From NCBI GenBank assembly GCA_030432295.1, contig JAUIHI010000027.1, positions 1 through 64,000 on the forward strand: DNA of 64,000 bases, in the 5' to 3' direction. Of this stretch, positions 12,965 through 58,325 are shown piece after piece. The notes beneath the pieces are model-generated. The model was given only the letters and a program-made list of their open reading frames with translations. It was not told the origin of the DNA and made no database searches. The position numbers were made by a program, and so were the translations under genes. The stretch's first letter is position 1; each line of letters opens with the position of its first letter. This DNA comes from Anaerolineae bacterium (GTDB lineage: Bacteria; Chloroflexota; Anaerolineae; Caldilineales; Caldilineaceae).

Positions 12965-13001
12965 AAGAACCGCCGGGTTTCGGAAAACCCGGCGGTTCTT
13001 T
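12964..13001. terminator. Terminator-like hairpin with TTTCGGAAAA core
   Basis: Seventeen-base perfect arms (12964-12980 and 12985-13001) around CGGA sit at the stop codon of the MGDG-synthase-like gene and before the convergent toxin gene. The core GGGTTTCGGAAAACCC is shared, with compensating arm changes, by the elements at 55083-55126 and 57831-57862. The right arm ends in TTCTTTT, enough for a weak intrinsic terminator. Confidence 0.88.
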
Positions 13002-34490: not shown

Positions 34491-34524
34491 AGAAGTTCGA
34501 CTTTTTCCGAAAAGTCGAACTTCT
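34491..34524. repeat. Perfect hairpin, TTCGAC / TTTCCGAAA family
   Basis: Fifteen-base perfect arms (AGAAGTTCGACTTTT and its inverse) surround TCCG. It lies 12 bp before the ribosome-binding site of the thiolase gene, in the 5' leader, so it is not a terminator for an upstream same-strand gene. Sister copies with compensating arm changes: 16244-16279, 56511-56546 and degenerate 989-1022. Confidence 0.93.
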
Positions 34525-52732: not shown

Positions 52733-53893
52733 CTATTCTTCCGATAGAACTCGGCCCAGCCGCGCCACGCCTTCTTCAATTTCGGCTTCCCCGAAATGGG
52801 CAAAACTCAGCCGCAGGCAATTGCCCAATCCGCCTACACTGGAACAGCGGACACCCGGCAGAAAACCCACCCCGGCTGTGTGGGCCGCGGACAGCAGCGC
52901 TGCCGTATCGATCCCCTCATCCATCTCCAGCCAGAAAAAGTAGCCGCCGTCGGGCTTCTGCCACCTGGCCATTCCACCCAAATGGCGGTGCAGCGCAGCG
53001 TCCATCACATCAATCCGTCGTCGGTAGATTTCGCGCAGACCAGCCAGATATTCCCCTTGCGAGCCCTTCTCCAACGCCACCCGCACCAGATTGGATGTGA
53101 AGTGATTCAGTCCGCCGCCGCTGTCCACCAGGCCGCAGGTGACGAAGCGCTGCACAACTTCCGGCGCGGCCTGAATCCAGCCCAGACGCAGACCGGGGGC
53201 CAGAATTTTGGAAAAGGAGCCGATGGAGAGCACCCGTCCACTCTCTGTGCGGGCGGCCAGGGGCGCAGGTGGCAGCGCAGCCTGCGTGGCGTTGTAGTGG
53301 AGCAACTGGTATACTTCATCGGCTACAATCGTAAAATTGTGTTTGTGGGCCAGGGCCACCAGTTCTTCCCGGCGCTGGGCCGAAAGGGTGTGGCCGGTGG
53401 GGTTCTGAAAAGCGGGGATTGTGTAGACGAAGACCGGCTGCTGTTGGGCCAGGGCTATTTCTAGCGCGTCCATACGCAGGCCGTTTTCGTCGCTGGGGAT
53501 GGGCACAGCATTCAGCCGGAAATCTTCACGCAGAATGCGCAGGGCCAGAAAATAGCTCGGCTCCTCCACAAAGACAGTGTCGCCCGGCTGTGTGAAAAGG
53601 GTGCAGATCAGCGTCAATGCCTGGGATGCCCCCGCCGTCACCATCAACTGCTCCGGCCCGACCGGCGAGGCATATTCTGCGCTCAAAAAATCGGCCAGTG
53701 CCTGACGGAAGCGCCCGTCCCCCTGCTCGTAGCCGTAGTTGAGAAGTTCCGTATCTCCTTCGGCGAAACGCACTTCTGCGGACTGGCGCATCAGGTCCAG
53801 GGGCAACAGATCGAAACCTGGCTGACCGATGCCGAAGTCGATGAGGGATGAGGTTCGGTTTACTTGCGACGAACGCAGGGCAGGACTTTTCAT
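52733..53893 (-). CDS. Class I/II PLP aminotransferase (2-aminoadipate aminotransferase-like)
   Basis: A 386-residue fold-type I aminotransferase. Marks: LIDFGIGQPGFDLLPLDLM, VTAGASQALTLI, YTIPAFQNPTGHTLSAQRREELV (Asn of NPTG), VADEVYQLLHY and the PLP lysine in IGSFSKILAPGLRLGW. This is the LysN/AroAT-like group related to MocR C-terminal domains, but no winged-helix domain is present. Probable roles are branched or aromatic amino-acid transamination. ATG 53893 follows GGAGATAT. Divergent from the sialidase gene. Confidence 0.92.
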   Translation of the reverse strand: MKSPALRSSQVNRTSSLIDFGIGQPGFDLLPLDLMRQSAEVRFAEGDTELLNYGYEQGDGRFRQALADFLSAEYASPVGPEQLMVTAGASQALTLICTLFTQPGDTVFVEEPSYFLALRILREDFRLNAVPIPSDENGLRMDALEIALAQQQPVFVYTIPAFQNPTGHTLSAQRREELVALAHKHNFTIVADEVYQLLHYNATQAALPPAPLAARTESGRVLSIGSFSKILAPGLRLGWIQAAPEVVQRFVTCGLVDSGGGLNHFTSNLVRVALEKGSQGEYLAGLREIYRRRIDVMDAALHRHLGGMARWQKPDGGYFFWLEMDEGIDTAALLSAAHTAGVGFLPGVRCSSVGGLGNCLRLSFAHFGEAEIEEGVARLGRVLSEE

Positions 53894-53972
53894 TGGGATA
53901 TCTCCTGTTGACGGGATAGGCGAACGCTATCCCATCGGCTGCCAATTGTCAATTCCACAGAAGGAAAGACCG

Positions 53973-55088
53973 ATGCTCACCAAAACCGACATCTTCACCG
54001 CCCGCACCGGCGGCTACTGGAACTACCGGGTCCCCGGCATCCTCTGCACCACAAACGGCGTCATCCTGGCAACGGTCGAGGCCCGCACAGGCACGGGCAG
54101 CGATTGGGATGGCAACGACATTCTCCTGCGCCGTAGCCTGGACGGGGGCGTCTCCTGGCAGCCGCCCCAACTGATAGTGAGCCACAAAACGTATGGCCCC
54201 GGCCCGGTGAGCAATTTTGTGCTTTTCGCTGACGCGGATGGGACGGTCCACGCGCTCTACTGCCACAACTACGAGCGGGTTTTTTATCTGCGAAGCGGAG
54301 ATGACGGCACAACTTTCTCCCGGCCGGTGGAGATTACCGAAAGCCTGGTCGCTTTCCGCGCCGAATATACCTGGCGGGTTATTGCCACCGGGCCGGGTCA
54401 CGGCATTCAACTGCGCAGCGGGCGGCTGCTGGTCCCCGTCTGGATGTCCGACGGCAGCGGCACGGAATTTGGCGCGGGCAAGCTGGGCCACCGCCCCTCT
54501 GAAGTGGCGACGATCTACAGCGACGACGGCGGCAAAAACTGGCGTTGCGGGGAAATTTTCGTCCATTCCAACGGGCGCATTATCAATCCCAGCGAAACTC
54601 TGGCTGTGGAACTTGACGACGGGCGGGTGCTCTGCAACATCCGCAGTGAATGCCCCCAGAACCGGCGGCTGATCGCTATCAGTCCTGACGGCGCGGGGCG
54701 TTGGACTGAGCCAGTCTTCGACGACGCGCTGCTGGAGCCGGTCTGTATGGCCAGTCTCCTGCGTCTGCGCCAGCCGGATGCCGACGGGCAAGGCGTCTAT
54801 CTTTTCGCCAATCCGGACAATCTGGAAAATGAACTGACGCCTCCGGGCCGCACTCTGGCCCACGACCGCAAGCGGCTGACGGCCAAAATGAGCGCAGACG
54901 ACTGCAACACCTGGCCGGTTTCCCGTGTGTTGGAAGCGGGGCCGTCCGGCTATTCGGATTTGGCCGAAGCGCCCGATGGGTCGATTCTCTGTATCTACGA
55001 ACGGGGGATGCTCAGCCGCATGACCGACACGGCTTCCGTGGCTGTCGCCCGCTTTGATCGGGGGTGGCTTTCTGCTAATGAGGCGTAA
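53973..55088 (+). CDS. Exo-alpha-sialidase-like protein (GH33 fold)
   Basis: A 371-residue six-bladed beta-propeller with repeated Asp-box motifs (SLDGGVSW, SGDDGTTF, SDDGGKNW). The N-terminal YWNYRVPGILCTTNGVIL resembles the RIP motif bearing the first catalytic arginine, later arginines (NIRSECPQNRR) and DGSILCIYERG near the end match the sialidase active site. It may cleave terminal sialic acid or related nonulosonic acids. No signal peptide, so it acts inside the cell unless exported otherwise. ATG 53973 with AAGGAAAG upstream is chosen. A strong palindrome follows. Confidence 0.88.
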   Translation: MLTKTDIFTARTGGYWNYRVPGILCTTNGVILATVEARTGTGSDWDGNDILLRRSLDGGVSWQPPQLIVSHKTYGPGPVSNFVLFADADGTVHALYCHNYERVFYLRSGDDGTTFSRPVEITESLVAFRAEYTWRVIATGPGHGIQLRSGRLLVPVWMSDGSGTEFGAGKLGHRPSEVATIYSDDGGKNWRCGEIFVHSNGRIINPSETLAVELDDGRVLCNIRSECPQNRRLIAISPDGAGRWTEPVFDDALLEPVCMASLLRLRQPDADGQGVYLFANPDNLENELTPPGRTLAHDRKRLTAKMSADDCNTWPVSRVLEAGPSGYSDLAEAPDGSILCIYERGMLSRMTDTASVAVARFDRGWLSANEA

Positions 55089-55126
55089 TACCTGCCAGGT
55101 TTCGGAAAACCTGGCAGGTATTACGC
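55083..55126. terminator. Terminator-like palindrome with TTTCGGAAAA core
   Basis: Arms of about 20 bases (GCGTAATACCTGCCAGGTTT and inverse) surround CGGA, overlapping the sialidase stop codon (TAA at 55086-55088). The inner CCTGCCAGGTTTCGGAAAAC matches exactly the in-frame element at 57831-57862. T-rich bases follow only weakly (TACGTTTTTG). Confidence 0.88.
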
Positions 55127-56425: not shown

Positions 56426-56441
56426 CGCACGATTCCTTTGG

Positions 56442-56504
56442 GTGTTGACAAAATATACGTTAGCGTATTTGAATTGTAAACGCTAACGTATATTTTGTCA
56501 ACAC
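56442..56504 (-). promoter_or_regulatory. Promoter with 25-bp inverted-repeat operator
   Basis: Perfect 25-base arms (56442-56466 and 56480-56504), each containing TATACGTTAGCGT, flank a 13-base centre. On the minus strand TTGACA (56496-56501) and TACAAT (56473-56478) are 17 bp apart, so a repressor bound here would cover the -10/-35 region. The core ATACGGTAGCGTAAGTATACG recurs at 57067-57087 in front of the XRE gene. Confidence 0.88.
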
Positions 56505-56510
56505 CTAATT

Positions 56511-56546
56511 AGAACGTTCGACTTTTTTCCAAAAGTCGAACGTTCT
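56511..56546. repeat. Hairpin, TTCGAC family
   Basis: Arms AGAACGTTCGACTTTT and inverse (56511-56526, 56531-56546), 8 bp past the XRE-regulator stop. The outer AGAACG pairs replace the AGAAGT or CAGCAG of sister copies, another compensated stem. Likely ends the XRE transcript. Confidence 0.9.
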
Positions 56547-56554
56547 ATAGTCTT

Positions 56555-57040
56555 CTATGCGGTGTAGGGGAATTGGGTCTGTTCGGCCACAATCGAGAGG
56601 ACAGTCGTGGAAGCACCGCGTGGCTCGTAGACGCCGGTCTCCCACTCGCTGATGGTGGATTGGCGCACGCCCAACTTTCGGGCAAATTCAGTCTGGGTCA
56701 TCTCTAAATGGACACGCAGGGCTTTTACAAGCGTTGCGTCCCAGACCGGCTCGCCGTCGATGCGTTGGACCTCGTAGACCTGGCCGGGACGCCGAAATGT
56801 GACCTGTTCGTTCGTTATATCCACCTCTTCGGCGTGATAGCCAGCCAGCATCCAGGCTTTGGCCTGCACCGCGCCGCTGCTCCGGTTGCTCCACCAGGCA
56901 CGCTGGGAGCGAGCAGTGGCGGGCAGGGATACGCCGAGAATCTGCTCAATTGCAGTGAAGCTCAGGCTGATTTCATTTTCCCCAGACTGGCGCAGATATT
57001 CCTGGAGAGGGTAGTATTTGCTAGTGATTACATCGCTCAT
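56555..57040 (-). CDS. XRE-family regulator with N-terminal DUF7662-like domain
   Basis: A 161-residue protein. The N-terminal half (YYPLQEYLRQSG ... SFTAIEQILGVSLPATARSQRAWWSNRSSG) matches the DUF7662-type domain found alone or in restriction- and defence-linked proteins. A short bridge (EEVDITNEQVTFRRPGQVYEV) leads to a C-terminal helix-turn-helix of XRE type (LRVHLEMTQTEFARKLGVRQSTISEWETGVYEPRG). It likely represses itself and the small gene at 56249, because both promoters share the TACGKTAGCGTA element. ATG 57040 is followed by the family N-terminus. Ligand or partner unknown. Confidence 0.85.
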   Translation of the reverse strand: MSDVITSKYYPLQEYLRQSGENEISLSFTAIEQILGVSLPATARSQRAWWSNRSSGAVQAKAWMLAGYHAEEVDITNEQVTFRRPGQVYEVQRIDGEPVWDATLVKALRVHLEMTQTEFARKLGVRQSTISEWETGVYEPRGASTTVLSIVAEQTQFPYTA

Positions 57041-57128: not shown

Positions 57129-58325
57129 ATGAACGAGACAATTCTCATCCTGGCCGACGACCTGACCGGCGCAGCGGATACGGCTTCCCGCTGTCGGGCC
57201 GCGGGTCTGTCGGCCACAATTTTCCTCACACCGCCCCAGCCGCCCCTACCCGCGGGCGTCGTCGCCTTCACCTCCGATTCCCGCCACCTGCCGCCAGCCG
57301 AAGCAGCTCAGCGGGTACGAGAAGTCGCTGAGCCGCTCGTCGAACAGTCTGTCCTCTGGTACAAGAAAATCGACTCCACCCTGCGCGGCAATATCGGCAG
57401 TGAGTTGGATGCGCTGCTGGACCTGTTGGAGGCACCCGCCGCGCTGGTCTGCCCCGCTTTCCCGGCCCAGGCGCGGGGACTGGTCAACGGCCATCTGGTG
57501 GCGCCGGGTGGCCCGCCAGTGGGCGTGCATCTGCCGTCCCTGCTGCGGGAGCAGAGCCGCCATCCGGTGCTATCGTTTTCGTTGGAGGATGTACGATCCG
57601 GGGAACTGGCAGAGCGATTTCAACGCAAAGGCGCAAAGGTGCAAAGCGGTGTCCTGAGCCAGTCAAAGGGGGGAAAAGGGGGGAAGGAACGGTCGATTTT
57701 TGTGGTGGATGGAATGACGGACGAGGATTTGGGGCTGATTGTGGACGGGGCCGCGACACTTCCGGGTCTGCTGCTCTGTGGCAGCGCGGGGCTGATTGGG
57801 GAGGTGGCGAAACGACAGGGAAAGGGCAAAGACCTGCCAGGTTTCGGAAAACCTGGCAGGTCTGACGGCAACGCGCTCGTTGTTGTGGGCAGCGGCAGTC
57901 CGATGGCCCACCAGCAGATCGACGGGCTGTTGTCCGCATTTCCCGACGCGGCGCGGGTAGTCATTGAAGCGGATAATCGCTCGTCTGTGGCATCCACTCA
58001 CCCGCTCGTCCTCATTCACCAGCCCCGGCCCGCGCCCGGCGCAGTGCTGGACGGCCCCGAAGCCCGGCGAAGGGCCAATCTTCTGGCCGACGCGGCTCTG
58101 GCACAGATTGGGCAAAAGCCGCCGGACCTGCTGTTCCTTGTGGGGGGAGACACCGCCGTGGCCGTCCTCTCCCGTCTGGGCGTGGAGCGGCTGACTGTCG
58201 AACGCGAACTGTTGCCGGGGATGCCACTTTGCACGGCGACGGTCAATGGACACACGCTGCGAGTGGTAATGAAGCCAGGGAGTTTTGGGGACGAGAATGC
58301 GCTGGTAGAAGCGCTGGAGCGTTGA
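57129..58325 (+). CDS. Four-carbon acid sugar kinase (DUF1537/OtnK-DtnK-like) with two repeat-derived insertions
   Basis: A 398-residue kinase. The N-terminal domain shows ILILADDLTGAADTASRC and WYKKIDSTLRGNIGSELDALLD with VCPAFPAQARGLVNGHL; the C-terminal domain shows LVVVGSGSPMAHQQI and DLLFLVGGDTAVAVLSRLGV ... PLCTATVNGHTLRVVMKPGSFGDENAL. It phosphorylates D-threonate, D-erythronate or similar acids for the PdxA2-like dehydrogenase. Two segments do not belong to the family: residues about 165-191 (QRKGAKVQSGVLSQSKGGKG...) begins with the CACAAAGG-like intergenic repeat and residues about 235-245 (DLPGFGKPGRS) are a perfect copy of the TTTCGGAAAA palindrome. The reading frame stays open. 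Start ATG 57129. Confidence 0.9.
   Translation: MNETILILADDLTGAADTASRCRAAGLSATIFLTPPQPPLPAGVVAFTSDSRHLPPAEAAQRVREVAEPLVEQSVLWYKKIDSTLRGNIGSELDALLDLLEAPAALVCPAFPAQARGLVNGHLVAPGGPPVGVHLPSLLREQSRHPVLSFSLEDVRSGELAERFQRKGAKVQSGVLSQSKGGKGGKERSIFVVDGMTDEDLGLIVDGAATLPGLLLCGSAGLIGEVAKRQGKGKDLPGFGKPGRSDGNALVVVGSGSPMAHQQIDGLLSAFPDAARVVIEADNRSSVASTHPLVLIHQPRPAPGAVLDGPEARRRANLLADAALAQIGQKPPDLLFLVGGDTAVAVLSRLGVERLTVERELLPGMPLCTATVNGHTLRVVMKPGSFGDENALVEALER
57621..57647. repeat. CACAAAGG-like repeat inside a coding region
   Basis: CAACGCAAAGGCGCAAAGGTGCAAAG has the same unit spacing as the CACAAAGGCACAAAG intergenic hairpins, with G for A at some places. It lies in the DUF1537 kinase gene and is in frame. 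The inverted partner arm is absent. Confidence 0.7.
57831..57862. repeat. Perfect 32-bp palindrome inside a coding region
   Basis: GACCTGCCAGGTTT / AAACCTGGCAGGTC around CGGA is identical in its inner 28 bases to the terminator-like palindrome at 55083-55126. It lies in frame within the DUF1537 kinase gene (residues about 235-245), where it could form a strong mRNA hairpin. Its length, 32 bp, is not a multiple of three, so one extra target or flanking change was needed to keep the frame. Confidence 0.93.

Follow-up and report, generated by a model that had tools for sequence, protein, structure and literature searches.

A family of 34 bp palindromes is present in the DUF1537 kinase gene of the analysed window (the whole stretch of 64,000 nucleotides) and in more than ten other genes of the same genome (G000). 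The palindrome in the kinase gene is not recent, as it is common to all seven members of the genus and missing from other genera. We consider it fairly likely that such lineage-specific palindromes spread in the ancestor of the genus, partly into genes, and that their arms have been kept by template switching. More tentatively, we propose that coding palindromes may have been kept perfect over genus-level time through arm-to-arm copying, loop inversions and a reading frame in which wobble positions pair with each other.

The kinase gene and its repeats

The features of the window that concern us here are the following.

57129 to 58325, plus strand: DUF1537 kinase gene (four-carbon acid sugar kinase, DtnK/OtnK-like), 398 aa, with three repeats inside
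57620 to 57647, plus strand: CGCAAAGG-type repeat, encoding QRKGAKVQS
57651 to 57669, plus strand: copy of the GTCCTGAGCYTGTCGAAGG repeat family with 2 mismatches, within an 8-codon addition unique to this genome
57830 to 57863, no strand: perfect palindrome of 34 bp with arms AGACCTGCCAGGTTT and loop CGGA, encoding (K)DLPGFGKPGRS (residues 234-245) in the predicted inter-domain linker
12966 to 12999, no strand: 34 bp family member AGAACCGCCGGGTTTCGGAAAACCCGGCGGTTCT, directly after a gene
34491 to 34524, no strand: 34 bp family member of the AGAAGTTCGACTTTT type, intergenic
55083 to 55126, no strand: perfect palindrome of 44 bp that shares the 30-base core of the kinase palindrome and overlaps the stop of gene 53829-55088
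56510 to 56547, no strand: related palindrome with 17 bp arms (TAGAACGTTCGACTTTT), intergenic

The kinase ORF is intact despite its repeats, as had been noted in the initial annotation, and both Pfam domains were matched (SBD_N, residues 5-223; NBD_C, residues 250-392). The best structural matches are 1yzy, 5dmh and 4xfr, and the protein has both the domains and the fold of a DUF1537 kinase. Its palindrome (AGACCTGCCAGGTTT-CGGA-AAACCTGGCAGGTCT) is perfect, with fully paired 15 bp arms and a 4 nt loop, and its RNA has a fold z of -4.4; the initial annotation had recognised it but, with 57831-57862, had made it two bases too short. Likewise, the core in common with the palindrome at 55083-55126 exists but comprises 30 bases and not 28 (ACCTGCCAGGTTTCGGAAAACCTGGCAGGT, at 55090-55119 and 57832-57861). 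As that palindrome overlaps a stop codon, it supplies the end of the upstream protein as well as a hairpin.

The CAAAGG-type repeat that had been described from the kinase gene is found at 57620-57647. This CACAAAGG-type repeat reads CAACGCAAAGGCGCAAAGGTGCAAAG; across about 0.9 Mb of the genome it has 8 further strict copies, all of them intergenic. A third family had been overlooked: the GTCCTGAGCYTGTCGAAGG repeat at 57651-57669 has 47 copies in the genome at up to 2 mismatches (control: 0). With the CGCAAAGG-type repeat, the palindrome and the GTCCTGAGCYTGTCGAAGG copy, three families of dispersed repeats are thus represented in the gene.

AlphaFold2 predicts residues 232-248 as a low-confidence coil that links helix 220-231 to strand 249-253 (pLDDT below 50 at residues 241-244), and the peptide coded by the palindrome would accordingly form the inter-domain linker in this model. 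The proposed location of both repeats in loops or linkers therefore agrees with the model for the palindrome but not for the CAAAGG-type repeat, as QRKGAKVQ is predicted to prolong helix 159-172. Residues 173-184, which correspond to the third repeat, are predicted to be disordered. The palindrome is probably of no special use to the enzyme.

Conservation of the site within the genus

The palindrome occurs at identical codons of the DUF1537 gene in 7 of 7 genus genomes, the copy of G002 being split over two contigs. The CGCAAAGG-coded peptide, QRKxAKxQR, is also genus-wide, intact or decayed, and adds about 8 residues. The initial annotation had taken the repeats for insertions into this gene; a fresh insertion is contradicted by the finding that all seven genomes have the palindrome together with the CAAAGG-derived peptide or its remnant. 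The seven proteins form one clade, within which support is weak, and the homologues from other genera are devoid of both the palindrome and the CGCAAAGG-type repeat.

It had been suggested that insertions should be recognisable by their absence from relatives. For the palindrome the answer is divided: its sequence is absent from other genera, but the linker is no longer in the genus (30-31 residues) than elsewhere (29-36 residues, unrelated in sequence). As the linkers are equally long, a simple length-adding insertion is unsupported at this site.

The 34 bp palindrome family

A survey of hairpins across 864 kb revealed a distinct class with 15 bp arms, a 4 nt loop and the ends AGA...TCT. The survey found 90 hairpins with arms of at least 11 in the real sequence, against 0 and 1 in Markov shuffles of the window and of a 400-kb contig stretch, respectively. 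The strict family pattern, AGAN9TTTN4AAAN9TCT, which by itself fixes the ends and the TTT/AAA, is matched at 105 places in G000, while the reversed-pattern control gave 0, so that the family is not a product of chance. Pairing is perfect in 59 of the 67 located copies. Rfam matches, which are to hairpins, are all below the gathering score.

The six genus mates have 88, 58, 56, 40, 18 and 4 strict copies. Among the other genomes of the family Caldilineaceae most have none and the range is 0-5; one genome of another genus (G020) has 44, almost every one AGACCTGCC-type. The relatives used for comparison are assemblies from metagenomes that carry the labels Caldilineaceae or Litorilinea. Four contigs of G002 (C184, C387, C563 and C660) start exactly at a 34 bp palindrome, which suggests that the assembly breaks at the repeat.

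The window also contains, at 56438-56510, a long AT-rich inverted repeat (GTGTTGACAAAATATACGTTAGCG...CGCTAACGTATATTTTGTCAACAC), which adjoins a small helix-turn-helix-like gene (56555-57040) and has matches to Rfam microRNA families below the gathering score.

Copies inside other genes

With gene calls that rest on a simple hexamer score, about 15 of the 31 located AGACCTGCC-type copies in G000 are within predicted CDSs of unrelated proteins, and about 2 of the 36 located AGAAGTTCG-type copies, one of these two having a doubtful start. Coding sequence makes up about 84-89% of the sample, and relative to this share copies of both kinds are underrepresented in genes. The copy at C16:74671 was not counted as a sound in-gene case, because the likely true start of the gene (lipoprotein signal) falls after it. 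The hosts include NUDIX, chorismate-binding, methyltransferase, NB-ARC, histidine kinase and PALP enzyme genes, among others, and the gene of an ABC-F-like protein hosts a AGAAGTTCG-type copy. The view of the initial annotation that dispersed repeats occur in frame in coding DNA thus holds for many genes.

Many of the in-gene copies are kept at the same place in genus orthologues and are missing from homologues of other genera. The histidine kinase copy is present in G000 and G005 and missing in G006, G002 and G003. Decayed orthologous copies were found in the chorismate-binding gene and, for NUDIX, in G006. In a sample of strict copies from G005, 3 of 27 are in genes, a figure that is low partly because the strict pattern misses in-gene copies with a single mismatch in this genome. 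Gains at in-gene sites amount to 8-18 residues and no exact empty site was found among the relatives, which are too divergent for the insertion size to be defined exactly.

At some of these sites other repeats are found. The ABC-F gene of G002 has PPYPPKIGGQGG at the palindrome site (L159), the PALP gene of G001 has ACGGAT repeats (L156), and another repeat-like segment occurs in G001 (L187/L195) at the site orthologous to L027:1499. Between species of the genus, the same protein loops hold different repeat-like segments, as if some loops collect repeats.

Paired changes in the arms and inversion of the loop

Among 62 AGACCTGCC-type copies there are 29 paired double changes, 12 one-sided changes and no unpaired doubles. 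Independent sites would give 0.4 paired doubles against the 29 seen, although the copies are related and compensated cells do not count as independent events. For the DUF1537 site, paired double changes occur in 4 cells; 1 of 500 shuffles gave as many. Here, the third base of a GAC codon pairs with the third base of an AGG codon, the pair being C-G, G-C or T-A depending on the species. C-G results in D...R and G-C in E...S, so that the pairing of two codons makes their residues co-vary in the peptide.

Loops differ much more than arms between orthologous in-gene copies (50% versus 9.6% of bases). Synonymous identity at in-gene sites is 164 of 184 in the arms compared to 1366 of 2096 in the flanks, a contrast which is overstated because the sites were chosen as perfect in G000. 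In the L009 gene, the coding strand of the loop reads TCCC in G001 and G004 and GGGA in G006, at the same orthologous site. Copies with a GGGA loop occur once each in G001, G004 and G006 and no donor copy was seen; a single such copy per genome speaks against a second copy of the same assembly as the source. A variant in G003 (AGATGTGCC) has two adjacent compensated pairs and is unique among the four strict copies of that genome. Multiple compensatory changes together with fully inverted loops have been described as marks of template switching (PMC8794818), and conserved stems with two-sided changes, combined with variable or inverting loops, fit this process, with one arm serving as template for the repair of the other during replication.

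In the favoured frame, bases i and 33-i are partners and third codon positions face third positions. This frame is used by 10 of 15 in-gene copies, while the other frames are used by 4 and 1 (p = 0.015 versus equal use). With third positions paired to third positions, joint changes of both arms cost little. The preference may also result from a tolerable peptide (DLPGFPKPGRS, rich in proline and glycine).

Proposed origin and maintenance of the palindromes

We propose that the family spread in the ancestor of the genus (Caldilineaceae), probably by some transposition-like process, and that some copies entered genes where an extra or changed loop was tolerated. The DUF1537 copy would have been fixed before the genus diversified and would now code for a flexible linker between the sugar-binding and the nucleotide-binding domain. 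During replication, hairpin-guided template switching would use one arm as template for the other and at times invert the loop, with selection at the protein level filtering the outcomes. We infer that this process, and not selection on the hairpin, maintains the arms. However, the arm sequence itself is conserved and template switching keeps the pairing only, so that selection, homogenisation or youth of the family must contribute too.

Several observations could be read as signs of a functional nucleic-acid element, such as a protein site on chromosome or RNA or an mRNA structure, that is selected wherever it is located: the arm sequence is conserved beyond the need of the protein while the loop is free, changes are compensatory, the fold is strong and many intergenic copies directly follow genes. 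We nevertheless regard such a function as rather unlikely, since copy numbers vary from 4 to 105 among genus mates, single copies are gained and lost freely, and compensated variants at many arm positions leave no fixed recognition sequence beyond the ends and TTT/AAA, which are set by the search pattern. Unlikely, too, is a still-mobile selfish palindrome of the Rickettsia kind (MITE- or REP-like), with species differences that reflect separate subfamily insertions at hot sites. Dispersal, presence or absence of in-gene copies within the genus and the occupation of the same loops by members of other repeat families (ABC-F in G002; the PALP and L027 gene sites in G001) would agree with mobility. 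Against it, target site duplications (k = 1-5) were absent at palindrome copies. Neither lone arms nor a larger element with such ends were found in about 0.9 of 6.7 Mb, apart from one imperfect match, and there is no 34 bp element within 1.5 kb of the seven matches to PF01797 (Y1 transposase). In addition, loop types and arm variants that are unique occur at orthologous sites without donor copies. That the kinase segment is an ordinary conserved linker peptide, palindromic by chance, is hardly credible: its length equals that of linkers in other genera, but the same 30-34 bases recur between genes and, in other frames, in unrelated genes, and these dispersed copies refute it.

A viral source was rejected, as no copies of the AGACCTGCC arms were found in viral contigs.

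The more tentative reading, in which coding palindromes are actively kept perfect by arm-to-arm copying, would mean that a mutational process at the DNA level continuously writes part of many protein sequences.

Comparison with known elements

MITEs differ from the 34 bp family, which lacks target site duplications. REP elements of the GTAG type are known from Chloroflexi (PMC3733652), and REPs of the GTAG/CGTC type, including intragenic ones, resemble the family in being hairpins of 20-40 bp with tens to hundreds of copies, some of them in genes. However, the unpaired GTAG or CGTC tag is missing here (within 8 nt, the tetranucleotides or their complements occur in 6 and 4 of 134 flanks), the symmetric stems have 15 bp compared to 5-13 in REPs, and no RAYT gene lies beside 34 bp copies. 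The same genome has a REP/RAYT-like unit of another family: a Y1 transposase-like gene (L209, C16:142602-142841), one of the seven PF01797 matches, lies between palindromes at C16:141310-141367 and C16:142909-142964, which are long and different (TGTAACGCAAGC...GCTTGCGTTACA).

Rickettsia palindromic elements are dispersed, occur intergenically and in frame in unrelated protein genes, and are tolerated by their hosts (PMC10969869, PMC2229807); loss of repeat identity over time has been reported for them (PMC6649704). The resemblance pointed out in the initial annotation is one of behaviour, as in-frame copies in unrelated genes and intergenic copies are found here as well. It does not extend to length (34 bp versus 105-150 bp) or to decay, because this family, from Chloroflexota, has kept its symmetry, with arms that are perfect or nearly so. 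In-frame palindromes have long been regarded as a decaying peculiarity of Rickettsia. The family from this unrelated phylum is much shorter, occupies over ten genes in a single genome and has orthologous copies genus-wide, and it represents a natural experiment on the persistence of perfect palindromes.

Perfect coding palindromes that are apparently maintained, with a phase that pairs third positions, have been described from mitochondria of Nematomorpha, where template switching was proposed (PMC6649704). The family described here is similarly found in genes, apparently maintained and paired at wobble positions, but the nematomorph palindromes reach 284 bp and are not a dispersed bacterial repeat family. 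Template-switching hairpins have further been described in RNA genes (rRNA, microRNA; PMC8794818), and here they are matched by paired double changes and inverted loops in protein-coding DNA, which has no obvious need for RNA structure. With loops inverted in place and paired non-synonymous changes (D...R to E...S) within proteins, template switching becomes open to direct tests in bacteria. These changes are also a warning that covariation in coding DNA need not indicate a functional RNA. Of the systems described so far, those nearest to the 34 bp family are the Rickettsia palindromic elements and the intragenic REPs.
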